From NCBI GenBank assembly GCA_030645475.1, contig JAUSMA010000060.1:62001-126000 (forward strand): a stretch of 64,000 bases of DNA. The letters are read 5' to 3'. This stretch comes from Nitrospirota bacterium (GTDB taxonomy: Bacteria; Nitrospirota; Nitrospiria; Nitrospirales; Nitrospiraceae). Position numbers and translations under genes: made by a program. Below are positions 2,321 through 50,357 of this stretch, piece after piece; position 1 is the first letter of the stretch; each line of letters opens with the position of its first letter. The notes under the pieces are model-generated. The model was given only the letters and a program-made list of their open reading frames with translations. It was not told where the DNA came from and ran no database searches.

Positions 2321-2747
2321 GCGACACCTTCCTATGGATGGTTTCACTATAATTAGAACGTGCGCACACTGTACATACAGCAGCCAGTCCACTTTCACTG
2401 GAGTCTTGGCCGCTGCCCTATCCTGCGTGTCCTGTTCCATTGAAGCGAGATCTGTTGGATTGGCCAAACGGGGAGGCGCTGGAAACCAGCCTTCCATTTG
2501 CTCCAGGCACTGAAGCGATTGGGCGACAGTAAGGTTCGTTTGTGCTCCTTCTGCCACAGTGCCTAGCGACCTTGGGCACCTATCCTTAGAAAGCCGCTCC
2601 TCTCGGCAGGCTCTATGTCCATGGCTTTGTTGGTTTTTCTCTCGTCGGATCAGGAGGGCTTTTCCTCCTGGCTGTCCAGCATGGGTCTTGCTGTATGTCA
2701 GTGGGCAGAGACAGGCATATGCCGACAGGATTGAGGAGGGCCATCAC

Positions 2748-3434
2748 ATGGAACAGATATTAGACAAAGCCGTCAGTCAGGGTTCTCGCAGTCTCGAATC
2801 GCGCAAGGGCTCAGGTTGGGCGGTGATCACGGGGCTGGTGGCACTCCTGACGTTGCCCGGCACTGGTGCGTTGGCTGCTGAGCTGACCCCGACGGAGTCC
2901 GTGAAGAGCACGATCTCTGAAGTGGTTCGTATCCTCGACAATGCGGAGGTGAAGCAGCCGAGCCGCTCCATGGAACGACGTCAGATGATCGAGCAGGTGG
3001 TCCGGGATCGAGTGAGTTATGAAGAGATGGCGAAACGTGCGTTGGGCGTGCCCTGGACGGACTTGACGGACAGCGAACGGCGGGAATTCGTCGATCTCTT
3101 CGTGCAATTACTCCGGGACACGTTTGCCGGGAGGATCGACTCGTATGCAGGCGAGCAGGTGGTCTATCTGTCCGAACAGCGCGAGGAACAGTTCGCCGAA
3201 GTGAAGACGAGGTTGACGGGCACCAAGATGGATACGCTCCTCGATTTCCGGTTGGCGAACCGGCTCGGCAATTGGCTCGTCTACGATGTGGTCATCGATG
3301 GAGCCAGCCTCGTCGGTAATTACCATGCGCAGTTCACCAGCATTATCCGCGACCTGGCCTATGCTGGGTTGGTGAAGCGGATGAAAGAGAAAACACTCGT
3401 CGCCAAAGCGTTTGAAGTGACCACGGCGCCCTAA
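2748..3434 (+). CDS. Exported MlaC/Ttg2D-family substrate-binding protein
   Basis: A 228-residue protein with a cationic N-terminus, a hydrophobic signal segment around residues 24-42 ending in ALAAEL, and an MlaC-like body: SYEEMAKRALG, WTDLTDSERREFVDLFVQLLRDTFAGRI, and the C-terminal IDGASLVGNYHAQFTSIIRD. MlaC proteins carry phospholipids across the periplasm between the outer membrane and the MlaFEDB ABC transporter. No mla transporter genes are adjacent, so the partner is unknown. The start is the ATG at 2748, seven bases after GAGGAGGG. A longer frame from 2559 lacks such a site. Confidence 0.8.
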   Translation: MEQILDKAVSQGSRSLESRKGSGWAVITGLVALLTLPGTGALAAELTPTESVKSTISEVVRILDNAEVKQPSRSMERRQMIEQVVRDRVSYEEMAKRALGVPWTDLTDSERREFVDLFVQLLRDTFAGRIDSYAGEQVVYLSEQREEQFAEVKTRLTGTKMDTLLDFRLANRLGNWLVYDVVIDGASLVGNYHAQFTSIIRDLAYAGLVKRMKEKTLVAKAFEVTTAP

Positions 3435-36791: not shown

Positions 36792-36821
36792 TTGACAACC
36801 TTCTTCCTTGTCTCCTAGAGT
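36792..36821 (+). promoter_or_regulatory. Candidate promoter of the btuFCD transcript
   Basis: TTGACA at 36792-36797 and TAGAGT at 36816-36821 with an 18-base spacer. The -35 box is perfect and it lies 17 bases ahead of the riboswitch, the right place for a leader start. Confidence 0.55.
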
Positions 36822-36837
36822 GCCCTCCACATTGTGA

Positions 36838-36983
36838 CTCCTGTGGTCAGGGAAGAGGGTGTAAGTCCCTCGCGGTCCCGCCGCTGTAAATGGGGACGAA
36901 ACCCGTAAATGCCACTGTTCGCTTCGGCGGATGGGAAGGTGCGGGGAGTAGGGTGAACCATAAGCCAGAAGACCTCCCAGGAT
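36838..36983 (+). ncRNA. Cobalamin riboswitch 1 (upstream of btuFCD)
   Basis: Core elements in order: GGGAAGAGGGTG-type start, CCGCCGCTGTAAATGGGGA, GCCACTG, GGGAAGGTGCGGGGAG and the B12 box AAGCCAGAAGACCT near 36962-36975. The ends pair as P1 (CCTGTGGTC with GACCTCCCAGG). A terminator hairpin follows at 37040-37074. It should reduce import when B12 is plentiful. Confidence 0.92.
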
Positions 36984-37039
36984 AGTTGACCGACGTTCCC
37001 TCGTGGGCTGGGGAATTGGCGAGGATGAGTTGCGGGAGC

Positions 37040-37074
37040 AATCCTCAGGGTCTGTCAGGCCTTGGGGATTTTTT
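37040..37074 (+). terminator. Rho-independent terminator of riboswitch 1
   Basis: AATCCTCAGGG and CCTTGGGGATT form an 11-base-pair stem (with some G-T pairs) and are followed by TTTTTT. GAGGAT at 37021-37026 can pair with ATCCTC in the 5' arm as an antiterminator. Ligand-bound RNA would free the arm and stop transcription before btuF. Confidence 0.75.
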
Positions 37075-37076
37075 AT

Positions 37077-38081
37077 TTGCGCACCGCTGCATGGCATGGT
37101 CGATGGTGGGCTGGACTGTTGACGAGTATGGGAATACTCGTTCTTGCGATGGCCACCTTCGCGAATGCAGATGATGGGACGTCGGGCATGGCACGTCGAC
37201 AGCAGGGCATCCTCACCGGCATGCCGTTTATGGCGAACGTCTCGGCACGCGCCTATGTCGATGATGCGGGTCGCCGCATATATTTTGCCAAACCTCCCGC
37301 GCGAATCGTCTCACTGGCGCCCAGCATCACGGAAATGCTGTTTGCCATGGAGGCGGGGGAGCAGCTCGTCGGCGTCACAGACTTTTGCGACTATCCACCC
37401 GAAGCTCTGACAAAGCCTAAAGTCGGCTACTCCAATCCGAACTTGGAAACGTTGGTGGCGCTCCAGCCTGATCTGGTAGTGGCGCCCAACGATTTTCTCA
37501 AACCCGATATCATCGTCAAGCTTGAGCAGCTGAAGATCCCAGTATTTATCTTGGCAGACAAGAACGTCGAGGGGATTTTCGTTCACATTCAAACGCTTGG
37601 ACGGATTGTCGGACATTCGGCAAAAGCCGATACCGTTGCCATGCAGCTTCGACATCAGGTGGCTGCGATCCAGCAGCGTGTTCAGGGAATGGCTCCAGTG
37701 CGGATGCTCTATGTGTTGAACAGCCAACCTTTGATCACTGTCGGGCCGGGCAGTTTCATCGATCAGCTCATTGGAATGGCCGGAGGCGTCAATGTCGCGG
37801 CCAAGAGCGTTACGCCCTATCCGCGGCTTAGTATGGAGTCTGTGCTCCAAGAGGATCCTGAAGTGTTGGTGTTTCCTGTCGGCAAAGCGGAAGGCATCTC
37901 AGAGAGCGAGCAGCAGACCTGGCGCCAGTGGACGACGATGACGGCGGTGAAGCGCAGCAGACTTCACCAGATTTCTGCCGATTGGTTGAACCGGCCTGGT
38001 CCGCGCATCGCCCAGGGACTTGAGTCGCTCGCCGCAATTTTACATCCGGATAACACGCCGGGCAGTCGAACCGAACGATAA
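37077..38081 (+). CDS. btuF: Corrinoid ABC transporter substrate-binding protein
   Basis: About 334 residues. A cleavable signal peptide ends near MATFANA, followed by a BtuF-type helical-backbone binding fold: RIVSLAPSITEMLFAMEAG, VGVTDFCDYPPEA, KVGYSNPNLETLVALQPDLVV, GPGSFIDQLIGMAGG. It binds cobalamin in the periplasm and feeds BtuCD. The start is uncertain: the TTG at 37077 gives a normal signal peptide, but the TTG at 37062 lies in the terminator arm and the ATG at 37128 leaves no positive N-terminus. The context (riboswitch, btuC, btuD) makes corrinoid far likelier than iron siderophore. Confidence 0.88.
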   Translation: MRTAAWHGRWWAGLLTSMGILVLAMATFANADDGTSGMARRQQGILTGMPFMANVSARAYVDDAGRRIYFAKPPARIVSLAPSITEMLFAMEAGEQLVGVTDFCDYPPEALTKPKVGYSNPNLETLVALQPDLVVAPNDFLKPDIIVKLEQLKIPVFILADKNVEGIFVHIQTLGRIVGHSAKADTVAMQLRHQVAAIQQRVQGMAPVRMLYVLNSQPLITVGPGSFIDQLIGMAGGVNVAAKSVTPYPRLSMESVLQEDPEVLVFPVGKAEGISESEQQTWRQWTTMTAVKRSRLHQISADWLNRPGPRIAQGLESLAAILHPDNTPGSRTER

Positions 38082-38093
38082 CGAGAACAGCGT

Positions 38094-39170
38094 ATGGCAG
38101 ATATCGTGGCATCATGGGCGCAGGCCGGCGCGGTGTTGACCGTCCAGCGATGGGTGGTAGTGATCGGTGGACTGCTGCTGGCGAGCCTGGCCGTGTTGCT
38201 GCTCTGTCTGCAATTCGGCGCCACGTCGGTCGGCATGGGAACGGTCGCGACGGCGATCGCGCGTCTGTTGCGCGGGGATGAGGCCGGCTCTCCAAGTCTG
38301 GCGACTTCCGAGATTATTATGGTGCAGATTCGTTTTCCGCGAGTGCTCATGGGTTTTCTCGTGGGGGCCAGTTTGGCGGCGGTCGGTGTCACGCTTCAAG
38401 CCCTGCTGAGAAATCCGTTAGCCGATCCCTATGTATTGGGTGTGTCGAGCGGATCCGCTCTGGGCGTTTCGGTGGCGATTCTGTTTGGCATCGGTTCCAC
38501 CTTCATGCTGCTGCCGGTGCTCCCGCTCTTTGGATTTGCCGGAGGCCTGCTGGCACTGGTGTTGATCTATCGGCTGGCGCAGTCAAAAGGCCGGTTGCCG
38601 GTTCATAGCCTGTTGCTGGCTGGCGTGATTTTGAATGCCATTCTGACGGCCTTTATCATGTTCATCACATCAATCATGGAGCCGAACCGTTCAGCGGGAC
38701 TGATGGCCTGGCTGATGGGATCGCTGACCGCGCCGGGGTATCCGGCATTAGGCGTCTTTTTGATGTATGTCGTGTTGGTCCTCGGGGTTCTCATGCACAA
38801 GGCCCAGTCGCTCAATGTGCTCACGTTGGGCGAAGAAACAGCTCGCTCACTGGGTATAGAGACTGAGGGGGTGAAGAAGCAGCTCTTTGTGCTCACGGCA
38901 CTCCTGACCGGTGCGATTGTGTCGGTGAGCGGCATGATCGGGTTCGTCGGGATGGTGGTGCCTCATGCGGTGCGGCTGCTCATCGGATCGGATCATCGGC
39001 TGTTGCTGCCTGCGTCGGCGTTAGTCGGAGGCATGTTTCTCTCCCTGGCCGATACGATCGCCCGGACGATTATGTCTCCCGCGGAAATACCGGTGGGCAT
39101 TGTGACGGCGCTCGCCGGTGGCCCATTTTTCCTCTATCTTCTTCTCTGGCGAAAAGATCGGATGTTGTGA
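38094..39170 (+). CDS. btuC: Corrinoid ABC transporter permease
   Basis: A 358-residue FecCD-family permease with about ten membrane segments. Typical stretches are RFPRVLMGFLVGASLAAVGVTLQALLRNPLADPYVLGVSSG (shown by pieces RVLMGFLVGASL and NPLADPYVLGVSSG), LLLAGVILNAIL, LLGEETARSLGI-like LTLGEETARSLGIE and GFVGMVVPHAVRLLIG. It forms the translocation dimer of BtuCDF. It begins 12 bases after btuF and ends one base before btuD. Confidence 0.93.
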   Translation: MADIVASWAQAGAVLTVQRWVVVIGGLLLASLAVLLLCLQFGATSVGMGTVATAIARLLRGDEAGSPSLATSEIIMVQIRFPRVLMGFLVGASLAAVGVTLQALLRNPLADPYVLGVSSGSALGVSVAILFGIGSTFMLLPVLPLFGFAGGLLALVLIYRLAQSKGRLPVHSLLLAGVILNAILTAFIMFITSIMEPNRSAGLMAWLMGSLTAPGYPALGVFLMYVVLVLGVLMHKAQSLNVLTLGEETARSLGIETEGVKKQLFVLTALLTGAIVSVSGMIGFVGMVVPHAVRLLIGSDHRLLLPASALVGGMFLSLADTIARTIMSPAEIPVGIVTALAGGPFFLYLLLWRKDRML

Positions 39171-39171
39171 G

Positions 39172-40047
39172 ATGACGACCTGCCAGATTGACGTCGCGCA
39201 TTCCGGGTTGTCTGCGGAGAGTCCTGCCATCGAAGTCCTTGGACTATCGTTTCAATACCGCACGTCGGAAGGGCGAGGGAGAATGTGGACCCTCGATCAT
39301 CTCTCCTTCCACGTCGATACCGGCGAGATTCTGGGCATTGTGGGACCTAACGGGTCCGGGAAGACCTCGCTCTTAAAAGTGTTGTCAGGTCTCTTGCCGG
39401 CAGGCGAAGGCGATGTACGATTGGGCGGTCTCTCCCTGGGGAAACAGAGCCAAACCGATATCGCCCGTGTGGTCGCGGTCGTGCCGCAGGAATATGCACA
39501 GGTATTCCCGTTTACTGTGGCCGAGACCGTATTGATGGGACGGTTCCCCCATCGGACGACTCGTTGGTGGAGTCTGGGAATCGGAGATGAGACCGCGGAC
39601 GATCTCGCCTGTGCGCACCAATCGATGGTCGACACCGATGTGCTCTCGCTGGCCGACCGACTGGTCTCGGACTTATCCGGCGGAGAACGGCAACGTGTCA
39701 TGATCGCGCGAGCGCTCGCGCAAGAGCCGAAGATCCTCCTTCTTGACGAGCCGACGGCGTTTCTCGACATCAATCACCAGATCGAGATTTGTTCGCTCAT
39801 CGCGAGGCTCAGGACAGAACGACGGCTGACGGTGGTGTTGGTGTCGCACGATCTGAATGTCGCGAGCCAGTATTGCGACCGGGTCTTGATGCTCAAGGAC
39901 GGCGGGCTGTGCCGTATCGGCTCGCCGGAGGAGACCATTCGACCTGATGTGCTTCGGATGGTCTATGGATGTGATGTGGTCGTCGACGCCCATCCCCAAA
40001 CGGGCAGGCCACGCGTGACGATGCCGATGAGTATCGTTCGACAGTAG
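39172..40047 (+). CDS. btuD: Corrinoid ABC transporter ATPase
   Basis: A 291-residue ATPase: Walker A GPNGSGKTSLLK, Q-loop VPQEYAQVFP, signature LSGGERQRVMIA, Walker B ILLLDEPTAFLD and switch His in VLVSHDLN. Its length and 32-residue N-terminal extension are normal for FecE/BtuD proteins. ATG 39172 is one base after the btuC stop; a longer frame overlapping btuC was rejected. The riboswitch of btuB begins about 80 bases past its stop. Confidence 0.93.
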   Translation: MTTCQIDVAHSGLSAESPAIEVLGLSFQYRTSEGRGRMWTLDHLSFHVDTGEILGIVGPNGSGKTSLLKVLSGLLPAGEGDVRLGGLSLGKQSQTDIARVVAVVPQEYAQVFPFTVAETVLMGRFPHRTTRWWSLGIGDETADDLACAHQSMVDTDVLSLADRLVSDLSGGERQRVMIARALAQEPKILLLDEPTAFLDINHQIEICSLIARLRTERRLTVVLVSHDLNVASQYCDRVLMLKDGGLCRIGSPEETIRPDVLRMVYGCDVVVDAHPQTGRPRVTMPMSIVRQ

Positions 40048-40104
40048 AAGACAGCCAGGGTCCTGTCCCCGGCCCGGCTGTGTGTGACCAAGGGGGGCGG
40101 TTAG

Positions 40105-40120
40105 TTTCTTATTTAAGAAA
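40105..40120. repeat. Palindrome ahead of riboswitch 2
   Basis: TTTCTTATTTAAGAAA has 7-base arms (TTTCTTA/TAAGAAA) and a two-base centre. It lies upstream of riboswitch 2, where a promoter is expected. It could be an operator or a weak hairpin. Confidence 0.4.
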
Positions 40121-40129
40121 GGGCGTTTT

Positions 40130-40285
40130 GGAGAAGCGACGCGGGTGACGGGGAAGATGGTGCAAATCCATCACGGTGCCGCCACTGTAAGCGGGGAGTA
40201 ATTCTGCATTGAGCCACTGTGTGCCTGGCACACGGGAAGGCGCAGAAACACGACGATCCGCAAGTCAGGAGACCCATTCCGTAGT
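40130..40285 (+). ncRNA. Cobalamin riboswitch 2 (upstream of btuB and the cob operon)
   Basis: Core elements: GGGAAGATGGTGCAAATCCA, CGCCACTGTAAGCGGGGAG, GCCACTG...GGGAAGGCGCAG and the B12 box CAAGTCAGGAGACC near 40261-40274. P1 pairs GGGT with ACCC at the borders. Unlike riboswitch 1, no terminator with T-run follows; a hairpin masks the btuB ribosome-binding site. Confidence 0.92.
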
Positions 40286-40298
40286 TGATTCGACTCAA

Positions 40299-40315
40299 CC
40301 CTTCGAGCACAAGGG
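40299..40315 (+). promoter_or_regulatory. Ribosome-binding-site sequestering hairpin of btuB
   Basis: CCCTT at 40299-40303 pairs with AAGGG at 40311-40315, which is part of the AAGGGAG ribosome-binding site of btuB (ATG 40324). A second hairpin, GTTGA/TCAAC, lies directly upstream. The pair suggests translational control by riboswitch 2. Confidence 0.6.
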
Positions 40316-40323
40316 AGATCGTT

Positions 40324-42330
40324 ATGATGTGGTTCCTTCGTTCTAGTCGTGTGTGGTGGTGTCTGCTTTCTCTGTTTGCCATGAGTCCTCTCGTTCATGC
40401 TGCCCCGGACATCGAAGTGGCATCCGCCGATCAAATAGACACCATTGAGACGCGGGAAGTCGTGGTGAGTGCAACCAAAACCCCTGTTCCTGTCACTCAA
40501 CTCACCAGCGCAGCCGAGATCATTACTGAGGAAGACCTGAAGCGTCGGCAGATCAAGATGGTTTCGGAAGCTCTCCGTCTCAGCCAGGGACTCACGGTGT
40601 TCTCGAACGGTGGACCCGGTACGAGCACGAGTGTGCGCATCCGAGGCAGCAACTCCGACCAGGTGCTGGTGCTGATCGATGGCGCGATTATGAACAGCGC
40701 TACGACCGGTAGTTTTGACTTTGCAAATCTCACCACCGACAACATCGAACGTATTGAAATTCTCCGTGGCGCCCAAAGCATGCTGTGGGGCGCGGACGCG
40801 ATGGGTGGTGTCATCAATATTACTACCAAGAGGGGCACCGGCGCTCCGTCGGCCAACGCGTTCTTCGAGTACGGATCGTTCTCGTCCATCCGAGAAGGTG
40901 GCCAAGTTTCCGGAAAAACAGGAATCGTGGACTACAGCGCGGCGATCTCACGTTGGGATTATACGGGATTTTCAGCCGTCAACTATCGCCGTGGTGCTTC
41001 GGAGCGAGATGGCTTTCACAACTGGCAAACCTCAGCGCGCCTGGGTGTGGCCCTTCCTCACGAGGGACGGCTCGACTTCAATTTTCGTCTCTTGCAAGGC
41101 AGGGTGAACATCGATAACGGTTTTTCTCCTGGATTCGATACCCTGGGAGCGTTCAACAACAGCCAGCAGTTTGTGTACAGCGCTGCCTATACGCAGCCGA
41201 TTACGACCTGGTGGAACCAAGTCCTCACGGTGTCACGCCAAACAGAGGATTCTGAGTCTTTTTCCGGAACGACCCAGCGCAATCTGCAAACTGGGGTCGT
41301 TTCTACTCCATTTCTCTACCGATCGCAGATCAACACGTTGTCGAATCGCATGGAGTGGCAAAATAATATCCAGATTGCCAAGCCCTTACTCCTTAGTGCC
41401 GGATATCAGTTCCGTGAGCAGCAAGGGCAAAATCGAGACCTTCTGACAAACAATCTCGATATCCCGACCAAGATCGTTTCCAGCAATGCCGGATTTGCTC
41501 AGGCCCAACTGAATCTCTGGGAACGAGTCTTTGCAACGGCAGGCGTGAGATATGACGATTACAACGTTTTTGGTGGCGCCACCACGTACCGGACTACCGC
41601 CGGCTATCTCCATCAAGAGACCGGGACCAAGATCCGGAGCAGTTATGCGACCGGGTTTCGCGCGCCGACCGTCAATCAATTGTACTTCCCAGATTTTGGG
41701 AAGTCGGATCTGAAGCCCGAGCGAAGTCAGAGTATGGATATCGGGGTGGACCAGTATCTGCTCAATAACCGGCTGACTCTGAGCGGGGGACATTTCTGGA
41801 GCCGTTACCGTGACATGATTGTGGCTCAACAGAGCGCAGATGTATGCGGGAGCTCGTTCGGCTTCGCCAATTATTGTGCGCAGAATATAGGCTTGGTGAG
41901 CACGAAGGGATGGGAGGCGAGTGTCAAATATGCGGTAGTGAGGGATATGCCCTTGATCAAGAGCTTAGATGTCCAGGCTCAATATACCAATACGCTGACC
42001 AGGAACCTGGTGCAGCAGCCTGGCAATCGAGCGCCTCGTATGCCGGTCGATCAATGGAGCATGATCATTAGTTATCAGCCGATTGATCCGGTCAGGGTGA
42101 ACCTCGAAGGCCGCTATGTGGGCTCACGATTCGACGATGTCAATAATCAGCAAAAGATGCGTGCCTTCGATGTGTGGAATCTCTCTGCCACCTATGATGT
42201 GACGAATCGTGTGCAGACGTACGTGCGCGCCGACAATATTTTCAATGAGAAGTATGAAGAGATTCAGTTTTACGGTACTCCTGTGCGATCTATTTTTGTC
42301 GGGCTGAGAGTGAATTACGATGCGAAGTAA
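40324..42330 (+). CDS. btuB: TonB-dependent cobalamin receptor
   Basis: A 668-residue outer-membrane receptor. Signal peptide ends near VHA-APDIE. A plug domain contains REVVVSATKTPVPVTQLTSA (TonB-box-like EVVVSATK), LRLSQGLTVFSNGGPGTSTSVRIRG (pieces: SNGGPGTSTSVRIRG) and RIEILRGAQSMLWGADAMGGVINI. The rest is a 22-strand barrel with aromatic ends, closing in IFVGLRVNYDAK. It takes cobalamin across the outer membrane with TonB energy. The gene starts under riboswitch 2 and is followed by cbiA after nine bases. Start ATG 40324 or 40327. Confidence 0.92.
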   Translation: MMWFLRSSRVWWCLLSLFAMSPLVHAAPDIEVASADQIDTIETREVVVSATKTPVPVTQLTSAAEIITEEDLKRRQIKMVSEALRLSQGLTVFSNGGPGTSTSVRIRGSNSDQVLVLIDGAIMNSATTGSFDFANLTTDNIERIEILRGAQSMLWGADAMGGVINITTKRGTGAPSANAFFEYGSFSSIREGGQVSGKTGIVDYSAAISRWDYTGFSAVNYRRGASERDGFHNWQTSARLGVALPHEGRLDFNFRLLQGRVNIDNGFSPGFDTLGAFNNSQQFVYSAAYTQPITTWWNQVLTVSRQTEDSESFSGTTQRNLQTGVVSTPFLYRSQINTLSNRMEWQNNIQIAKPLLLSAGYQFREQQGQNRDLLTNNLDIPTKIVSSNAGFAQAQLNLWERVFATAGVRYDDYNVFGGATTYRTTAGYLHQETGTKIRSSYATGFRAPTVNQLYFPDFGKSDLKPERSQSMDIGVDQYLLNNRLTLSGGHFWSRYRDMIVAQQSADVCGSSFGFANYCAQNIGLVSTKGWEASVKYAVVRDMPLIKSLDVQAQYTNTLTRNLVQQPGNRAPRMPVDQWSMIISYQPIDPVRVNLEGRYVGSRFDDVNNQQKMRAFDVWNLSATYDVTNRVQTYVRADNIFNEKYEEIQFYGTPVRSIFVGLRVNYDAK

Positions 42331-42339
42331 CTGAATCAT

Positions 42340-43740
42340 ATGATCCTTCCCCGATTGGTCATCGCAGGCACTTCCAGCGGTGTCGGCAAGACGACGGTCA
42401 CCTTGGCAATCCTGGCGGCTCTGAAAGCTCGGGGCCGCCAGGTCCAGCCCTTCAAGGCTGGGCCTGATTTTATTGACCCGAGCCATCATGCCGCAGCGAC
42501 CGGACGTCCATCTCGGAATCTGGATGGCTGGATGTTGGGGGAAGCCGTCAATCGCGATATCTTTACGCGGGCCGCTGCTGACGCAGATATCTCCATTATC
42601 GAAGGGATGATGGGGCTGTTCGACGGGAGCTCACCGGCAAACGAAATCGGCAGCACGGCCGAATTGGCAAAACAGTTGGATGCGCCGGTGGTACTCGTCA
42701 TTGATGGAAGCGCCATGGTACGCTCCGCCGCAGCGATGGTGTCGGGGTATGCACAGTTCGATCCGGCGCTACGAGTAAAGGCCGTTCTGTTCAATCGAGT
42801 CGGTAGCGAAGGGCATTACAAGTTACTCAAGGAAGCCGTAGAGCAAGAGACTGATGTCGTGGCTGTGGGGTATTTCCGGTCGGATCCGGCAGTGACGATT
42901 TCTGATCGCCATCTCGGGCTTGTGACGGCGATGGAAGAGGGAACAGGCGAACTCTACGGTCGGCTGGCGAAGGCAGCGGAAGAAACGGTCGATCTGGATC
43001 GAATCGAGGTAGTGGCCCGTTCATGCGGTGAGTGCCCTGCAGTGGCACTTCCGCCTGTGACCAGGAGCCAAGGGCACACGATTCGAATCGGGGTGGCTCA
43101 GGATCTGGCCTTTTGTTTTTACTATCCCGACAATCTTGAATTGCTCAAAGCAGAGGGGGCGGAGTTGGTGACGTTTTCCCCCATGAACGATCAGGTGCTG
43201 CCCGATGTGGATATGCTGTATCTTGGCGGGGGTTATCCGGAACTGCATGGTGGGGTGCTGAGTAAGAATGCCCCAATGCGGACGGCCATCCGGAAGTTTG
43301 CCGAGCAGGGTGGGACGATTTATGCAGAATGCGGGGGGATGATGTATCTCACGCAAGCCATCCGCGACTTCGCCGGGATATCGCATGAGATGGTCGGGCT
43401 GTTTTCCGCTGAAGCTGTCATGAAGAAGCCGGGTTTGACCCTGGGGTACAGGACGATGGAACTCTCGCACGACTGCATCCTTGGTGCGGCTGGCACCACC
43501 GCACGAGGACATGAGTTTCATTATTCTTCGCTGGTTTCGAGCGGAACATTGGACTATGCCTGTGCGCTTCGGGATGCGGGAGGCCTGTCGAAGGGGCAGG
43601 ATGGGGTCTCCATCGGCAATGTGGTGGGGCTCTATACGCATTTGCATTTTGCCAGCCAGCCGCAGATTGCGAAGTCGCTGGTGTCGTCGGTGCGACGGAC
43701 CTCTCCGCGATTGTCGGTGAATGGAGGAGGCGCGAGATGA
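42340..43740 (+). CDS. cbiA: Cobyrinic acid a,c-diamide synthase
   Basis: A 466-residue CobB/CbiA-type enzyme. The N-terminal P-loop domain has IAGTSSGVGKTTVTLAIL; the C-terminal class I glutamine amidotransferase domain has LYLGGGYPELH, the active Cys in YAECGGMMYL and the His in GLYTHLHF. It amidates the a and c side chains of the corrin ring using Gln and ATP. It heads the cob operon after btuB and overlaps cobO by four bases. Confidence 0.95.
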   Translation: MILPRLVIAGTSSGVGKTTVTLAILAALKARGRQVQPFKAGPDFIDPSHHAAATGRPSRNLDGWMLGEAVNRDIFTRAAADADISIIEGMMGLFDGSSPANEIGSTAELAKQLDAPVVLVIDGSAMVRSAAAMVSGYAQFDPALRVKAVLFNRVGSEGHYKLLKEAVEQETDVVAVGYFRSDPAVTISDRHLGLVTAMEEGTGELYGRLAKAAEETVDLDRIEVVARSCGECPAVALPPVTRSQGHTIRIGVAQDLAFCFYYPDNLELLKAEGAELVTFSPMNDQVLPDVDMLYLGGGYPELHGGVLSKNAPMRTAIRKFAEQGGTIYAECGGMMYLTQAIRDFAGISHEMVGLFSAEAVMKKPGLTLGYRTMELSHDCILGAAGTTARGHEFHYSSLVSSGTLDYACALRDAGGLSKGQDGVSIGNVVGLYTHLHFASQPQIAKSLVSSVRRTSPRLSVNGGGAR

Positions 43741-44336
43741 CGGAGCAGGACGAACACAAAGCCAAGATGGAACGGCTCAAGGCGTCAGTGGATCGGCGCA
43801 TTGAAGCGGCGCAGGAAGAGAAGGGCCTGTTGATGGTCTATACAGGCGCAGGCAAGGGGAAGACCACGGCAGCGCTGGGTATGGCGTTACGATGTCTCGG
43901 CCATGGCATGAAGGTGGCGGTGGTGCAGTTTATCAAGGGGGCAATTGATACGGCGGAGGAGCGGGCCTTAAAGTCCTTTGGCGATCGCGTCACGTTTCTC
44001 CGTATGGGGGAAGGGTACACGTGGGAAACTCAAGACCGTGAGCGGGATACGAAGTTCGCCCGAGAGGCCTGGACCGTGGTCTGCGGGTTTCTGCGGGATC
44101 CCTCCTATGCGATGGTCATTTTGGATGAATTCAATATCGCATTGCAGCATGAGTACGTTCCGCTAGACGAGGTGCTCTCGGGGCTGCGTTCACGGCCGGT
44201 CATGCAGCATGTGGTGATCACCGGGCGTGGCGCCAAAGAAGCGTTGATCGAGGAAGCCGATCTCGTTACGGAGATGAAGCAGGTCAAACATCCCTTTCGA
44301 AAAGGCATCAAGGCGCAGGCGGGGGTGGAGTTTTGA
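43737..44336 (+). CDS. cobO: Corrinoid adenosyltransferase, CobO/BtuR type
   Basis: A 199-residue enzyme with the P-loop YTGAGKGKTTAALG, VVQFIKGAIDTAEERALKSFG, TWETQDRERDTKFA and ILDEFNIAL. It transfers the 5'-deoxyadenosyl group to Co(I) corrinoids from ATP. It has overlaps of four bases on both sides. A second, unrelated adenosyltransferase (pduO type) lies 900 bases downstream. Confidence 0.94.
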   Translation: MTEQDEHKAKMERLKASVDRRIEAAQEEKGLLMVYTGAGKGKTTAALGMALRCLGHGMKVAVVQFIKGAIDTAEERALKSFGDRVTFLRMGEGYTWETQDRERDTKFAREAWTVVCGFLRDPSYAMVILDEFNIALQHEYVPLDEVLSGLRSRPVMQHVVITGRGAKEALIEEADLVTEMKQVKHPFRKGIKAQAGVEF

Positions 44337-44548
44337 GGGGGCCGGTGACGAAGACCTGCGAACATTGCAGGGAGATGTTCGAGTGCCGTGGATATCAATG
44401 CTGGTGTGGGACTCTCGGCATTACGGAGCAGCAGATGGACTGGATCACCGCGCGGTATAAAGAATGTCTCTGTCCCGTCTGCTTGGGAAAAGTTGCCGCC
44501 GGTGAGCTGGGGCCTCAATCCACGCATCAACCTGAGCGGGCGACGTGA
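44333..44548 (+). CDS. Cysteine-rich CWC family protein
   Basis: A 71-residue protein with eight Cys in a pattern like a small metal-binding domain: CEHCREMFEC, YQCWCGTLGI, CLCPVCLG. This resembles the cysteine-rich CWC family, whose function is unknown. The first codon is a TTG at 44333 or a GTG at 44345; the latter is closer to a GAGGGGG. It lies between cobO and bluB in the B12 operon and shares an overlap of four bases with cobO, so it is cotranslated. A metal-handling role in B12 synthesis is inference. Confidence 0.75.
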   Translation: MRGPVTKTCEHCREMFECRGYQCWCGTLGITEQQMDWITARYKECLCPVCLGKVAAGELGPQSTHQPERAT

Positions 44549-44564
44549 AGGAGTGCAACGAGCG

Positions 44565-45341
44565 ATGCCGGGTAACGGACGATTTTCAAATGCGGAGCGG
44601 GAGGCGGTGTATCGGGTAATTTTCGAGCGGCGCGATGTCCGCCGGAATTTCTTGCCGGCGCCGATACCGGACGAGGTCTTGACGCGCCTATTGACGGCCG
44701 CGCACCATGCCGGATCGGTTGGATTCATGCAGCCATGGGATTTTGTGGTGGTCCGCGATTCTGCCGTGAAGGGCCTGGTCAAAGACTTGTTTCGCGCGGC
44801 GAATGCCGAGGCTGCGACGAAGTATCGGGGGAAGCGAGCCGCGCTGTATCGAAGTCTCAAGCTGGAAGGCATCGAAGAAGCGCCGGTTAATATCGGTGTC
44901 ACGTGCAGTCGTCAACGTGGCGGCCCTCATGTGCTGGGCCGTTCGACGGTGCGTGATACGGATCTCTATAGCACCTGTTGCGCCATCCAGAATCTCTGGC
45001 TGGCTGCACGTGCGGAAGGCATCGGGGTTGGCTGGGTCAGCATCCTGGACCATGGAGCCCTGAAACGGGTGCTCGGTATTCCAAGGCCGGTCACGGTGTT
45101 GGCCTATCTGTGTCTGGGGTACGTCGACGACTTTGCGGTGCAGCCGGACTTGGAGTCGGCAGGGTGGCGCGCCAGGATTCCAGTCGAGCAACTCATTCAC
45201 TACGAATCGTGGGGAGCCACACAGCAGGGTGACAGGAGCAACGGCGATGCGCATCACGAAAGTATACACAAGAACGGGAGACGCGGGAAAAACCAGGCTG
45301 GCCGGCGGGCAGCAGGTCTGGAAGGACAGTCTTCGAGTTGA
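44565..45341 (+). CDS. bluB: 5,6-dimethylbenzimidazole synthase
   Basis: A 258-residue nitroreductase-fold enzyme that fragments reduced FMN to make the lower ligand of B12. Motifs: FERRDVRRNFLPAPIPDEVLTRLLTAAHHAGSVGFMQPW (pieces: ERRDVRRNFLPAPIP, AAHHAGSVGFMQPWDF), NIGVTCSRQRGG, YSTCCAIQNLWLAARAEGIGVGWVSIL. Usual length is about 215-230 residues; here about 30 additional residues run in another frame over the start of pduO (95-base overlap), which looks like loss of the ancestral stop. AAGGAG lies 14 bases before the ATG at 44565. Confidence 0.92.
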   Translation: MPGNGRFSNAEREAVYRVIFERRDVRRNFLPAPIPDEVLTRLLTAAHHAGSVGFMQPWDFVVVRDSAVKGLVKDLFRAANAEAATKYRGKRAALYRSLKLEGIEEAPVNIGVTCSRQRGGPHVLGRSTVRDTDLYSTCCAIQNLWLAARAEGIGVGWVSILDHGALKRVLGIPRPVTVLAYLCLGYVDDFAVQPDLESAGWRARIPVEQLIHYESWGATQQGDRSNGDAHHESIHKNGRRGKNQAGRRAAGLEGQSSS

Positions 45342-45834
45342 AGCCTATGGCACGCTTGATGAGCTGAATGCGGTGGTCGGGGTGGTGCGGGTGATGAATG
45401 CCGAGATGGTTGGGATGTATGAGCAGGCGGAGCCACTCGAAGAAGATCTCCGCTGGGTCCAGAATAAACTATTCGACCTCGGTGGCATTCTGGCGACGAC
45501 CCCTGGGCAAGAGTTCAAAAATATGCCCCAAGTTACGGCAGTGGATGTGACGAAGCTGGAAAAGATGATCGATCGCTGCCAGAAGGATCTGGCTCCGCTC
45601 AAGGAGTTCATTCTGCCAGGCGGGGGGAAGGTGTCGGGTTTTTTGCATCAGGCGAGAACGGTGTGCCGTCGGGCGGAGCGGATCTGTGTGCATCTCTCGC
45701 GGGAAGAGCCGGTCGATGCGGTGCATATCAAGTTCGTGAATCGGCTGAGCGATGCCTTGTTTGTCCTGGCACGCTGGGCTGCCAAGACCCAGGGGGAGCC
45801 GGAGTTCCTCTGGCAGCGTGATACGGGGAAGTGA
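45247..45834 (+). CDS. pduO: Cob(I)alamin adenosyltransferase, PduO/MMAB type
   Basis: A 195-residue enzyme with the N-terminal ATP loop MRITKVYTRTGDAGKTRLAGG, YGTLDELNAVVG, and RRAERICVHLSREEPVD. PduO-type enzymes adenosylate cobalamin and differ in fold from CobO. Start ATG 45247 matches the family N-terminus exactly and lies inside bluB. Two adenosyltransferases in one operon suggest different substrates, for example cobyrinate/cobinamide versus complete cobalamin; this is inference. Confidence 0.94.
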   Translation: MRITKVYTRTGDAGKTRLAGGQQVWKDSLRVEAYGTLDELNAVVGVVRVMNAEMVGMYEQAEPLEEDLRWVQNKLFDLGGILATTPGQEFKNMPQVTAVDVTKLEKMIDRCQKDLAPLKEFILPGGGKVSGFLHQARTVCRRAERICVHLSREEPVDAVHIKFVNRLSDALFVLARWAAKTQGEPEFLWQRDTGK

Positions 45835-45851
45835 CGAGTGAGGGGTGATCG

Positions 45852-46388
45852 GTGAGAGGAAAGCCACGGAGTAAGTCGCAGATCATTTTTGTCTTGGGCG
45901 GTGCGGCATCCGGCAAGAGTCAGGTGGCGCTCGACCTGGCAGGTCAGAGAGGGCCAAGGGCCTTTGTGGCGACAGGTCAGGCGTTGGATCGGGAGATGAA
46001 AGTCCGGATCGAGCGGCACCAGGCCACGCGCGCGTCCGATTGGGAGACGGCGGAAGTGCCGACTGATCTCGCACAGTGGTTTTTAGATAAAGGCGTTACG
46101 TATCAGTCAATTGTGCTTGATTGTCTCACGCTATGGTTGAGTAATATGAAGGGGCTGCGGCTGCGTGATGGAGACGTATTTGACGCGACGGCCAGCCTAT
46201 TAGGTGCTATTCGAGCGACGAAGGCCCGCGTGGTGATCGTGAGTAATGAATTGGGGCTTGGGCTGGTGCCTGCAACAAAACCTGTTAGAGCGTTTCGTGA
46301 TTTGGCAGGGAAGGTGAATCAGCAGGTGGCGGCAGAAGCCGATGAAGTCTATCTGACGGTCAGCGGTCTCCCGCTACGATTGAAGTAA
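45852..46388 (+). CDS. cobU: Adenosylcobinamide kinase/adenosylcobinamide-phosphate guanylyltransferase
   Basis: A 178-residue CobU/CobP with P-loop [33 protein letters not shown] (guanylylated His in RHQATR) and [24 protein letters not shown]. It phosphorylates adenosylcobinamide and activates it with GTP. A GTG start at 45852 is preceded by GAGGGG. A GTGACGAGTGAGGGGTGA-type repeat fills the short gap before it. Confidence 0.93.
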
Positions 46389-46402
46389 GAGGAGTGTCGA
46401 GG

Positions 46403-47479
46403 ATGTTGTTCCGAGAAACCATTGACCGAATTCAGCCGGCCGACCCTCGACTCTTGGCACAGGCGCAGGCGCGCCTCGATCGATTGACGAAGCCGATCGG
46501 CAGTCTGGGCCGGCTGGAAGAATTGGCTGCACGTTATGTCATGATCACGGGTGAGTTGAAGCCAAAGGTCCCAGCCGGAGCGGTCTTTACCTTTGCGGCC
46601 GATCATGGAGTGACGGTTGAAGGGGTGAGCGCCTATCCCTCCGCCGTGACGCCTCAGATGGTCTTGAACTTCTTGCGCGGTGGCGCTGGCGTGAATGTGC
46701 TGGCGCGTCATGCCGGCCTTGAGGTGCGGGTGGTCGATATCGGTGTCGATTTCGATTTTGAAGCGGTGCCAAGACTGATTCATAAGAAGGTCATGCCTGG
46801 CACAAAGAATCTCATGAAGGAGTCGGCGATGAGTCCCGCGCAGGCTGCGCAAGCGATTCAAGTCGGGATAGAACTGGCCACTGAGGCCTCTCAGCAGGGC
46901 ATCGGCTTGATCGGGACCGGTGAGATGGGGATCGGCAACACGACGGCGAGCTCAGCGATTGTTGCTGTGATAACGGGCCGACCGGTTTCCGAGGTGACAG
47001 GACGGGGGACGGGTATTGACGATGCCAGCCATGCCCGCAAGATCGACGTGATTCAGCAGGCGCTCGCATTCCACCGGCTCGACTCGTCTGATGCGATCGC
47101 GGTCCTTGCGAAAGTAGGCGGATTAGAAATCGCGGGGCTGGCCGGTCTGATGCTCGGCGCCGCAGCGGCTCGTGTTCCTGTCGTGTTGGACGGCTTTATC
47201 GCAGGAGCAGCCGCGTTGATCGCTGTGGGTTTACAACCGCACTGCAAAGACTATCTCATCGCATCCCACCGGTCCGTAGAGCGCGGCCATCAGGCGATAT
47301 TGGATCATCTTGGATTGAAGCCGCTGTTCGATCTCGACCTTCGTCTAGGGGAAGGGACCGGCGCCTGCCTGGGTATGAGTCTGGTTGTTGCCGCCATTAA
47401 GATCCTCACGGAGATGGCCACGTTCGACGAAGCGGGTGTGTCGGAGCGTACGGAAGGGGGTACGGGGATAAAGGGGTAA
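46403..47479 (+). CDS. cobT: Nicotinate-nucleotide-dimethylbenzimidazole phosphoribosyltransferase
   Basis: A 358-residue CobT with [39 protein letters not shown] (piece: [16 protein letters not shown]), [16 protein letters not shown] and [14 protein letters not shown]. It attaches ribose phosphate to dimethylbenzimidazole, activating it. It fits next to bluB. Start ATG 46403 with AAGAGGAG eight bases upstream. Its C-terminus GGTGIKG is encoded by a G-rich arm of the hairpin at 47456. Confidence 0.95.
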
Positions 47480-47542
47480 AGGGGGTAGGGGGAAGACCAG
47501 TGGTGGTCTTATTACCCCGGTAGCCCTTATCCCGTTACCCCC
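47456..47542. repeat. Long G-rich/C-rich inverted repeat between cobT and cobS
   Basis: The arm starting GGGGGTACGGGGATAAAGGG at 47456 pairs with the arm ending CCCTTATCCCGTTACCCCC at 47542, with GAAGACCA/TGGTCTT at the centre. The left arm contains the cobT stop. The RNA would form a strong hairpin ahead of cobS. Confidence 0.7.
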
Positions 47543-47551
47543 ATCTTTCAA

Positions 47552-48304
47552 ATGGTACGTCTATTCATCATCGCCTGGCAGTTCCTCACAGCCGTTCCGC
47601 TCAGCCGCTCAACGCACGATGCCAAGCCGGAGGAGTTGGCGGCCTCCATGAGTTGGTATCCCTTCGTGGGCTTGCTCCTTGGCGCGCTGTTAGTCACGGC
47701 AGATCTGTTCCTCTCGAAAGTCCTCTCTATCCAAATCATAAGTGTGGTCCTGATGCTTCTCCTGATCGGGATCACGCGTGGGCTCCACCAGGATGGTCTG
47801 GCCGATATGGTGGATGGCCTGGCTGGCGGCCGGACCGCTCAGGCTCGATTGGCGATTATGCGAGATGGGCGCGTCGGCGCAATCGGAGCCACGGGACTCT
47901 TTCTCGCCCTCGGTCTGCGATTTGCCGGGCTCAATGCCATGCCGGCTGGCGAGCATCTCGCATTGCTGCTTGGCATGCCGGTGGTCGGACGCTGGGCCAT
48001 GGTCATGGGGGCCTTCCATGTGACCTATGCACGGTCGGAAGGAGGATTGGCCCAACCGTTTCTCACATATTTATCATGGCGTCATCTCTGTCTGGCAACC
48101 GCCACAGCAGGGGTCGTCTTGACGCTGTTGCTGGGACCCTGGGCGGCCTTGGGCTGTCTCCTGATCGGTACGGCGCTCGTGCGCCTGTCTACGGCCTGGT
48201 TCCATCGCATGTTTGGCGGCGTCACGGGGGACTTGCTCGGTGCGACGAACGAAGTCGCAGAGATTCTCTTTCTCGTGATCGTCCCTGTGGTGCTGTCCCG
48301 ATGA
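47552..48304 (+). CDS. cobS: Adenosylcobinamide-GDP ribazoletransferase (cobalamin synthase)
   Basis: A 250-residue integral membrane enzyme with IAWQFLTAVPLSR, GLHQDGLADMVDGLAGG and IMRDGRVGAIGATGLF, the acidic motifs that bind Mg2+. It joins adenosylcobinamide-GDP with alpha-ribazole to make B12. It overlaps cbiB by four bases (ATGA). It follows a large hairpin, so its expression may be lower than that of cobT. Confidence 0.93.
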   Translation: MVRLFIIAWQFLTAVPLSRSTHDAKPEELAASMSWYPFVGLLLGALLVTADLFLSKVLSIQIISVVLMLLLIGITRGLHQDGLADMVDGLAGGRTAQARLAIMRDGRVGAIGATGLFLALGLRFAGLNAMPAGEHLALLLGMPVVGRWAMVMGAFHVTYARSEGGLAQPFLTYLSWRHLCLATATAGVVLTLLLGPWAALGCLLIGTALVRLSTAWFHRMFGGVTGDLLGATNEVAEILFLVIVPVVLSR

Positions 48305-49263
48305 CCGGAGGCGAATTGGCGGTGGCCTGCATCGTAGACGCGGTGGTCGGAGACCCCCGCGGGTTTCCACACCCGGTGCGATGGCTGGGATCTGTCGTCG
48401 AGTGGTGCGACCGGCATGTTGATCGACTCGCCTTCTCTCCTCCCAAACAACGGATGGCAGGTGTGTTGCTGGCTGCTGCATTGCCAACCGGAGCCTATGC
48501 CGCTGGAGCGGTACTCATCTGGTTAGGGGGATCGATCGATCCTTTGGTGGGTACTGTTGTCACCGTCCTGTTGGCTTGGACCACGCTTGCGGCTCGCGAT
48601 CTCATGGACCATGTTCTCTCTGTACAACGGGCACTCCAATCCCATTCTTTGCCGGAAGCTCGATCAGCCGTTGCCCAGATCGTCGGCCGCGATACGGAGG
48701 AGATGGCGGAAGCGGATATCGTTCGTGCGACGGTGGAAACGATTGCGGAAAGCACGGCTGATGGCATCGTCGCGCCCTTGTTCTATCTGGTTATCGGGGG
48801 AGCGCCTTTGGCGTTGGCCTATAAGGCGATCAATACCTTGGACTCGATGATTGGCCATTTGGACGACCGATACCGATGGTTCGGTTGGGCATCGGCTCGA
48901 TTGGACGACGTCGCAAACTTTCTTCCGGCTCGCATTACCGCGCTCTTGCTGGTGTTGTCTGCGGGAATTTTGTCTCGATCATGGCCAGTAATGCAGAGGG
49001 CCTGGCAGGTTCTGTTGCGTGATGGAGGACAGCATCCAAGCCCGAACAGTGGACGTCCGGAAGCTGCGATGGCCGGGGCGCTTGGGGTGCAACTGGGCGG
49101 GGTCAACCGCTATGACGGTCTTTCTCTTGAACGGCCTTGCCTCGGCGACCCGGTTCAGCCTTTGACGCAAGCTCACATCGGTAGGGCGTTGGCCCTCATG
49201 CTCTGGACCAGTCTCTTGGGAACGGTGTTGAGCATCGGATCGCTTCTGATGGTAAAGGGATGA
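48301..49263 (+). CDS. cbiB: Adenosylcobinamide-phosphate synthase
   Basis: A 320-residue membrane protein: DAVVGDPRGFPHPVRWLGSVVEW (short piece: DPRGFPHPVRWLG), SRLVGRDT-like QIVGRDTEEM, ETIAESTADGIVAPLFYL and NYRYDGLSL-like VNRYDGLSL. It attaches aminopropanol (or its phosphate) to cobyric acid. ATG 48301 overlaps the cobS stop; a long open frame reaching back to 47653 is an out-of-frame reading through cobS. Confidence 0.92.
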   Translation: MTGGELAVACIVDAVVGDPRGFPHPVRWLGSVVEWCDRHVDRLAFSPPKQRMAGVLLAAALPTGAYAAGAVLIWLGGSIDPLVGTVVTVLLAWTTLAARDLMDHVLSVQRALQSHSLPEARSAVAQIVGRDTEEMAEADIVRATVETIAESTADGIVAPLFYLVIGGAPLALAYKAINTLDSMIGHLDDRYRWFGWASARLDDVANFLPARITALLLVLSAGILSRSWPVMQRAWQVLLRDGGQHPSPNSGRPEAAMAGALGVQLGGVNRYDGLSLERPCLGDPVQPLTQAHIGRALALMLWTSLLGTVLSIGSLLMVKG

Positions 49264-50357
49264 CACAACCAATTCACGGCGGAAATGTCTACAAGGTCGC
49301 CCGGGAACAACGAATTCCTGTTGGCCGCATCCTGGATTTCAGCGCCAGCATCAATCCGTTGGGGCCTCCCGACACAGGGCTTCGCGCCATTCGCGCGGCG
49401 CTCAAGCAGATCGTCCATTATCCGGATCCAGATTGTTGGCAGCTCACGCAAGAACTGGCGCAACAATGCGCGGTCGATCCGGACATGATTCTCGTCGGCA
49501 ATGGTTCAACCGAATTGATCCATCTGCTGCCCCGCGCACTCACAATCACGTCTGCGCTTGTTATGGGTCCTACGTTCGAGGAATATGCGCATGCGCTGAC
49601 GGAGGGAGGGAGTTCGGTTCAGTATGTTCACGCCACACATGCAGAGCAATTTCGCCCTCCATTATTGAACGAAACGCTGCGGCAACTTTCTGGCAAACGG
49701 TCAGGATTCGACGCCGTCTTTCTGTGCAATCCCAATAATCCGACCGGTCAGGTGATGAACCGGCTTGCTGTGCGGGAGCTTGCTGAAGTCGTCGAACGGC
49801 AGCAGGGTTGGCTGATCGTGGATGAGGCCTTCATCGATTACTGTCCGGCTCAGTCTGTCATGCCGATGTTGCGAGAGTACCCGCACATGATGGTGCTACG
49901 CAGTCTGACGAAGTTTTATGCCATGCCGGGGCTGCGAATCGGCTACCTGGTTGGCGCGAGCAAGGTCGTGGAACGAGTGAAAGATCGTCAGCCTCCCTGG
50001 TCGGTCAATTCACTGGCTCAAGAGGTCTCACTTGCGGTGCTACGCGATCATGCCTATGCGACAAGAAGCCGCACATTTATGAAGGGCGAACGGGCGCGGC
50101 TCATGCGCGAGCTTCGTCACCTGCCCGGCCTCTGTCTTTACCCGTCTGCCGCGAATTTTATGTTGATCGAACTTCCCGTCTCAACGTCTGCCGCTGAGGT
50201 GACGGCACGTCTGGCTGCTGAGAGGATTCTGGTTCGAGACTGTTCGACGATGCCAGGCCTCACATCACAGATGATCAGAGTTGCGGTTAAAACTGAGAAA
50301 GACAATCGGCGATTGCTGGCAGCCCTTGGCTCCTGTTTGGAGAAACAAAAGCCATGA
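49260..50357 (+). CDS. cobD: L-threonine-O-3-phosphate decarboxylase-type PLP enzyme
   Basis: A 365-residue aminotransferase-fold protein starting IHGGNVYKVAREQ with ILDFSASINPLGPP, CNPNNPTGQVM and the PLP Lys in LRSLTKFYAMPGLRIGYLVG. In CobD it makes (R)-1-amino-2-propanol phosphate for the B12 arm. Similarity to HisC is normal, but neighbours cbiB and cbiZ argue for CobD. It overlaps cbiB and cbiZ by four bases each. Confidence 0.9.
   Translation: MTQPIHGGNVYKVAREQRIPVGRILDFSASINPLGPPDTGLRAIRAALKQIVHYPDPDCWQLTQELAQQCAVDPDMILVGNGSTELIHLLPRALTITSALVMGPTFEEYAHALTEGGSSVQYVHATHAEQFRPPLLNETLRQLSGKRSGFDAVFLCNPNNPTGQVMNRLAVRELAEVVERQQGWLIVDEAFIDYCPAQSVMPMLREYPHMMVLRSLTKFYAMPGLRIGYLVGASKVVERVKDRQPPWSVNSLAQEVSLAVLRDHAYATRSRTFMKGERARLMRELRHLPGLCLYPSAANFMLIELPVSTSAAEVTARLAAERILVRDCSTMPGLTSQMIRVAVKTEKDNRRLLAALGSCLEKQKP

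Follow-up and report, generated by a model that had tools for sequence, protein, structure and literature searches.

Two cobalamin riboswitches, apparently in series, at the btuFCD-btuB-cob locus of Nitrospira, and a pseudoknot preceding the second

Why does one locus carry two cobalamin riboswitches, and do they act side by side or one behind the other? The question is raised by a 64,000-nucleotide stretch of a Nitrospirota bacterium (contig JAUSMA010000060.1, positions 62,001 to 126,000, hereafter the window), which belongs to the genome of a Nitrospira, a genus of key nitrifiers, whose closest named relative has a BtuC 99% identical to the one encoded here. The order of elements is switch 1, btuF, btuC, btuD, switch 2, btuB and a run of cobalamin genes, and a genome-wide Rfam cmscan gave two RF00174 matches, both within the window and both exceeding the gathering score of 31.5 bits (Table 1), in agreement with a first-pass annotation that had named two cobalamin riboswitches here. 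We regard it as likely that the two act in series and repress, a reading carried by the observed aptamers, terminator and Shine-Dalgarno hairpin, by covarying kissing loops, by an asymmetry of promoters and by a platform found throughout the order.

According to this reading, one sigma70-type promoter would produce a btuFCD-btuB-cob transcript with the two riboswitches in series. When corrinoid is bound to switch 1, the kissing loop between L5 and L13 and the helix P13 would be favoured, the 5′ strand of the terminator would be free to form the terminator, and transcription would end ahead of btuF. In the ligand-free state that 5′ strand would be taken up by the 3′ side of P13, by the GAGGAU strand or by both, and the polymerase would read through the operon. 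On the messages read through, corrinoid would stabilise P13 of switch 2 over the btuB Shine-Dalgarno sequence by a second kissing loop, and translation of the outer-membrane receptor would be blocked. Here we infer ligand binding, the repressing sign, co-transcription and the acting antiterminator. The repressing sign was kept in view of what the genes serve, uptake and salvage, which are the usual repressed targets.

The first-pass annotation had assigned different outputs to the two switches, namely termination before btuFCD and occlusion of the Shine-Dalgarno sequence before btuB, and both platforms proved to be conserved over the family, that of switch 1 over the order. The hairpin with T-run that follows switch 1 was recovered as an intrinsic terminator, with three pairs more than the 11 first counted when G-U pairs are included. 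Its pairs were kept in all 42 aligned leaders, and the outermost pair of P13 covaried among them (AU19, GU11, GC10, UA1, one unpaired); the platform was present in 49/49 btuF leaders of the fetched family genomes, with a mean column identity of 86% (42 distinct sequences), and in 71/78 named Nitrospirota loci. A covariance model of the platform matched 221 of 269 genomes of the class (E <= 0.001), strongly in four families of the order and weakly (E 1e-4 to 6e-6) in about a dozen genomes outside it. These alignments support the assignment of switch 1 to a terminator-type platform before btuFCD, conserved across the order. In the family f3 (L226-L229) the terminator platform stands directly before btuB, not btuF, and P13 is altered on both sides.

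In leader 2, CCCUU/AAGGG closes a loop of 7 nt and covers the Shine-Dalgarno sequence (40313-40317) of the btuB ATG at 40324, as had been proposed, and the pattern CCCYU/AAGGG was matched in 62 of the 68 switch-2 leaders that were sufficiently covered in named genomes. The six others comprise four (L175, L182, L183 and L184, the reading of L183 being inferred from its twin L251) that read CCCUCUUCGAG..AAAGGG, one masked by N and one on a rearranged contig. A terminator with a T-run, the feature named beforehand as incompatible with a translational switch 2, was searched for in leader 2 by a terminator scan, and none was found; a count of T-runs there (15/68) takes in coding sequence and was not used as evidence. 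Switch 2 is thus supported as a translational-type platform, in which the Shine-Dalgarno sequence would be occluded in the predicted bound-state hairpin, with no terminator. Both folds expected from the leaders were present, but by energy alone neither the platform of leader 1 (z score -1.7) nor the short hairpin of leader 2 (z score +0.6) was beyond chance, and free-energy folding of the isolated platforms gave no decision; the folds are held to be beyond chance because they are conserved (49/49 and 62/68), not by energy.

In both switches the aptamer is followed by a hairpin with the loop CG-N-G-Y, which can pair with L5 (U-X-CCG). The variable position of L5 and the Y of L13 were C-G in 89/89 switch-1 aptamers and in 13/13 of a third switch type described below, and among 75 switch-2 aptamers G-C (50), G-U (21) or A-U (4), so that all 177/177 assigned aptamers are able to pair at this position; the letter N varies freely (U, A, C, G), as expected of a bulge. 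From this covariation P13 is taken as UUCCC/GGGAA in switch 1 and as CCCUU/AAGGG with the Shine-Dalgarno sequence in switch 2, and P13 with its L5-L13 kissing loop is the predicted ligand-coupled helix. The third cobalamin riboswitch type, which has its own TTGACA promoter and the box GCCAGGAGACC, was seen in relatives (L003, L004, L005, L006, L037, L044, L048, L053, L254 and others); in the one that was read, that of L115, the T-run lies further downstream.

Promoters were scored as TTGACA-17/18-TAnnnT with a threshold of 10/12 consensus matches in the 78 named loci; a leader was admitted if at least 420 nt of it (switch 1) or 300 nt (switch 2) could be seen, which left 63 and 72 for scoring. 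A sigma70-like promoter was found before switch 1 in 59/63 loci, and before switch 2 in 0/72, where 9/12 was reached in 2/72; in the window, none was found from btuD to switch 2. Both switches occur in 65/78 loci, and of the other 13, six end before switch 2 or at the btuD end, six begin at or inside btuF and one is masked. From the promoter asymmetry and the joint occurrence of the switches, the simplest reading is one transcript with serial gates, in which transcription of all of btuFCD-btuB-cob is probably under switch 1, and btuB has switch 2 as an additional, translational control. The earlier suggestion that import and the long cob operon respond at different thresholds was not supported in that form: no promoter reached the threshold before switch 2, btuB is itself an import gene, and the cob genes lie behind both switches.

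How the ligand would reach the terminator was considered with two candidate antiterminators. The terminator 5′ strand has three possible partners: GAGGAU (helix B, proposed by the first-pass annotation), P13 through its 3′ side (helix A), and the 3′ strand of the terminator itself. In the window, the duplex energy of helix A was -11.0 kcal/mol, with 7 of 1000 shuffled strands equally good, and that of helix B was -9.3 kcal/mol, with 31/1000. Helix A was good in family f4 too; helix B was kept in the tested f3 and f4 sequences and, by eye, in f2. Helix B shares its 3′ strand with the terminator and appears real as a terminator alternative, and this part of the proposal stood; no feature was found that links it to the ligand: helix B does not overlap P13, the helix tied to the ligand by the kissing loop, and therefore alone cannot report the ligand state. 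Neither candidate combines conservation across families with a link to P13. Helix B was rejected as a kissing hairpin: its loop CGGGA equals the L13 given for metE of P. megaterium, but f2 does not keep this loop, while it does keep the CG-N-GG of the first hairpin. A pseudoknotted antiterminator in which the two sides of P13 would be joined found no support, its first helix being no better than chance in f3 and f4. The core of the helix B region, GRUGAAG..C.GGGUGCAAUCCUC (window 37021-37046), is kept even outside the order (L234-L238), more so than the P13 sequence.

Several results weigh against the serial, repressing arrangement. Helix A is lost in family f3, where 633 and 585 of 1000 shuffled strands were equally good, and in free folding of 49 leaders, with transcripts cut before the terminator 3′ side and helices counted at a probability above 0.5, A formed in 2/49 and B in 29/49, while P13 formed without ligand in 34/49, so that neither helix is singled out as the link between P13 and antitermination. 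Seventeen further aptamers were not assigned by the L5-L13 patterns, and in 2/75 switch-2 aptamers position 4 of L13 is A, not G, which breaks one contact. The missing sigma70-like site before switch 2 also leaves room for other promoter types, and with them for the arrangement implied by the first-pass annotation, in which a promoter of its own between btuD and switch 2 would let import and synthesis respond separately. The gap from btuD to the aptamer core, about 110-140 nt in most loci and at least 900 nt with an extra gene in others, could accommodate such a start, and the conserved pseudoknot in it, treated below, could mark one; we nevertheless consider parallel switches unlikely, as identical scoring separates the two leaders so sharply, and as the third switch type, with its TTGACA before the aptamer, exemplifies what a promoter-borne cobalamin leader looks like here. 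Still less probable is an activating switch 1, in which P13 would free GAGGAU and helix B would form and prevent termination when corrinoid is bound. It would explain why helix B, which is compatible with P13, persists as a terminator alternative in the examined f3, f4 and f2 sequences, and one activating corrinoid riboswitch is known, that of A. halodurans cobT (PMC10653944; this and the other published systems are cited from excerpts of the papers). In that case, however, the excerpt describes a P13 overlapping the terminator, which is not so here; the pairing of the P13 5′ side with GCGAGG, which would hold GAGGAU without ligand, was at chance in f4 and f3 (348, 739 and 509 of 1000 shuffled strands equally good; window, 82/1000), and uptake activated by B12 would be odd physiology. 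The serial, repressing arrangement is therefore retained as the likely one.

Immediately upstream of the switch-2 aptamer, a putative H-type pseudoknot with stems S1 and S2 was found. For each leader, the top-scoring H-type pseudoknot within the 100 nt preceding the aptamer core was compared with dinucleotide shuffles; in the window it scored -29.7, and 0/25 shuffles were equally good. All 25 shuffles were beaten in 51/59 family leaders, and all 30 in 59/72 named leaders (55/72 with another random seed); in the same test, 3/57 stretches upstream of switch 1 did so, as did 1 to 4 of 64-78 in four controls taken from coding sequence. No convincing pseudoknot was obtained in three of the 59 (L012, L069, L114), which were retained in the count, and in L012 and L069 pairing can still be made out by eye if two G-U pairs or a shift of the stem are allowed. 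For covariation, 41 of the 59 were taken as representatives with less than 85% identity (L069 was omitted, having no model), and among these S2 occurred in 30 versions and S1 in 41; S2 position 4 was C-G in 15, G-C in 15, A-U in 6, G-U in 3 and U-A in 2. The distance to the aptamer core was 48-60 nt in nearly all leaders. We take the pseudoknot to be a real RNA structure.

The pseudoknot is present before switch 2 in most Nitrospira (also, for example, L102:4575-4660) and absent there in family f4 (0/7 loci). By sequence, one strong copy per genome was detected in the window genome and in 9/10 relatives; the one remaining yielded nothing in the sequence search, though the element is present at its locus. 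At the gathering level no Rfam 15 family matched it, the window and nine loci giving only cobalamin and tRNA, and a permissive Rfam search of 39900-40340 returned, beside cobalamin, only sub-threshold matches at chance level. In L241-L248 (f4), a purine-rich AACAAAGGAG replaces the pseudoknot upstream of switch 2, and by eye the CCCUUC strand lying over the Shine-Dalgarno sequence could be a pairing partner for it. In L062, L070, L078, L094 and L095 a gene that looks nitrilase-like when its translation is read by eye lies between btuD and switch 2, and the pseudoknot stays beside switch 2 behind the inserted gene. L115 (G029) carries on the reverse strand, at about 2647-3261, a promoter-borne third-type switch, the pseudoknot, switch 2 and btuB, with two aptamers about 220 nt apart. 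A role in stop-codon read-through or frameshifting was rejected, as the distance to the upstream stop varies widely (by eye) and as in L115 the pseudoknot copy follows a riboswitch, not a gene.

Our preferred guess is that the pseudoknot may serve as an insulator for an aptamer that has to fold in the middle of an operon under translation, since promoter-borne switches do not have one; that f4 has none before switch 2 speaks against this. Tentatively, and with confidence somewhat short of even, we suggest that a class of structured RNA not yet described exists in Nitrospiraceae: an H-type pseudoknot with about 10 + 6-7 pairs, lying about 55 nt before an operon-internal cobalamin riboswitch, with which it would form a composite leader. 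In that leader the pseudoknot would either shield the aptamer against the transcript upstream and the ribosomes on it, or respond to a second signal. That the pseudoknot is an independent sensor, giving btuB two inputs, corrinoid and another signal, seems to us improbable on its own: its fixed position before switch 2 and stems conserved by pairing rather than by sequence would suit a sensor, but no aptamer-like conserved unpaired core was noticed in it, and a single strong copy per genome and the lack of it in f4 argue otherwise.

The features of the locus are collected in Table 1. The start of btuF was picked by eye, the open reading frame opening at TTG 37062. The cobalamin genes downstream of both switches are tightly spaced, and the cobD-like gene encodes a CobD-type decarboxylase. 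The operon encodes corrinoid adenosyltransferases of two types that are unrelated to each other, BtuR/CobA and PduO (window 43737-44336 and 45133-45834).

Table 1. Coordinates of RNA elements and genes at the two-switch locus (positions in the window)
Feature	Position	Strand	Details
Sigma70-like promoter	36792..36821	+	TTGACA-18-TAGAGT; 10/12 consensus matches
Switch 1 cobalamin aptamer	36827..36995	+	RF00174, 90.6 bits, E 4e-21; L5 UCCCG at 36876-36880
P13 of switch 1	36995..37016	+	G/UUCCCU with GGGGAA/U; L13 CG-U-GGG at 37002-37007
Candidate antiterminator A	37008..37048	+	CUGGGGA 37008-37014 (P13 3′ side) with UCCUCAG 37042-37048 (terminator 5′ side)
Helix B (candidate antiterminator)	37021..37046	+	GAGGAU 37021-37026 with AUCCUC 37041-37046
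Intrinsic terminator of leader 1	37040-37070, with T-run to 37075	+	14 pairs including G-U, loop 3, then TTTTT
btuF	37128..38081	+	Peripla_BP_2, E 6.3e-33; BtuF model below cut-off
btuC	38094..39170	+	FecCD, E 4.4e-86
btuD	39172..40047	+	ABC_tran, E 1e-32
Putative H-type pseudoknot	40051..40098	+	S1 40051-40056 + 40058-40062 with 40071-40081; S2 GUCCCC 40065-40070 with GGGGGC 40093-40098
Switch 2 cobalamin aptamer	40101..40295	+	RF00174, 102.7 bits, E 1.4e-24; L5 UGCCG at 40177-40181
P13 of switch 2	40299..40315	+	CCCUU 40299-40303 / AAGGG 40311-40315; L13 CG-A-GCA at 40304-40309
btuB, TonB-dependent receptor	40324..42330	+	TonB_dep_Rec_b-barrel and Plug; TonB-B12 model best, below cut-off
cobB, cobA/btuR, bluB, pduO-type, cobU, cobT, cobS, one unannotated open reading frame, cobD-like	42340..50357	+	Pfam, NCBIfam

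Each switch has relatives among described systems. In the repressing metE riboswitch of P. megaterium, the 3′ side of P13 pairs with the 5′ side of the terminator, as demonstrated by mutation (PMC10653944); L5 is UCCCG there too, and helix A follows the same logic, whereas L13 in our leaders is CG-N-GG with a bulge instead of the five contiguous pairs given for metE, and here helix B is the conserved one, the P13-to-terminator pairing being lost in a sister family. Switch 2 resembles the translational switches of E. coli btuB and env8HyCbl, in which a kissing loop, reported as bulged in env8HyCbl, stabilises the P13 that holds the ribosome-binding site (PMC10653944); unlike them, as the excerpt presents them, it is operon-internal, behind another cobalamin riboswitch and, in most Nitrospira, a pseudoknot. 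According to the TaRTLEt study, as excerpted, most Gram-negative taxa examined have a transcriptionally active cobalamin riboswitch and, nearly always, a second one that lacks such activity (PMC12121620), and two B12 outputs per genome are therefore not new; those switches stand at separate loci, whereas here they are apparently serial on one transcript and kept across the family. Two aptamers on one message are likewise described for the tandem S-adenosylmethionine and cobalamin riboswitches before metE (PMC9600662) and the two thiamine pyrophosphate switches before B. anthracis tenA (PMC12121620); as far as those excerpts go, the present pair differs in sharing one ligand, lying 3 kb apart with three genes between, and having different outputs. 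Among the papers listed by keyword searches of the open literature, no title or abstract beginning described the serial cobalamin arrangement or the pseudoknot.

Taken singly, neither switch is unusual; the locus, which is the B12 uptake and salvage operon of Nitrospira, stands out from routine by its conserved serial layout and by the pseudoknot. The latter would add a definite new RNA element whose phylogenetic signature is clear, and the two rival antiterminators, which behave differently between families, make the coupling of the kissing loop to termination testable by comparison. Serial control by the same ligand, at transcription and again at translation and kept across the family, would offer a case from nature for asking why a cell duplicates a sensor, one idea being a coarse gate for the operon combined with a fine gate for the surface receptor.

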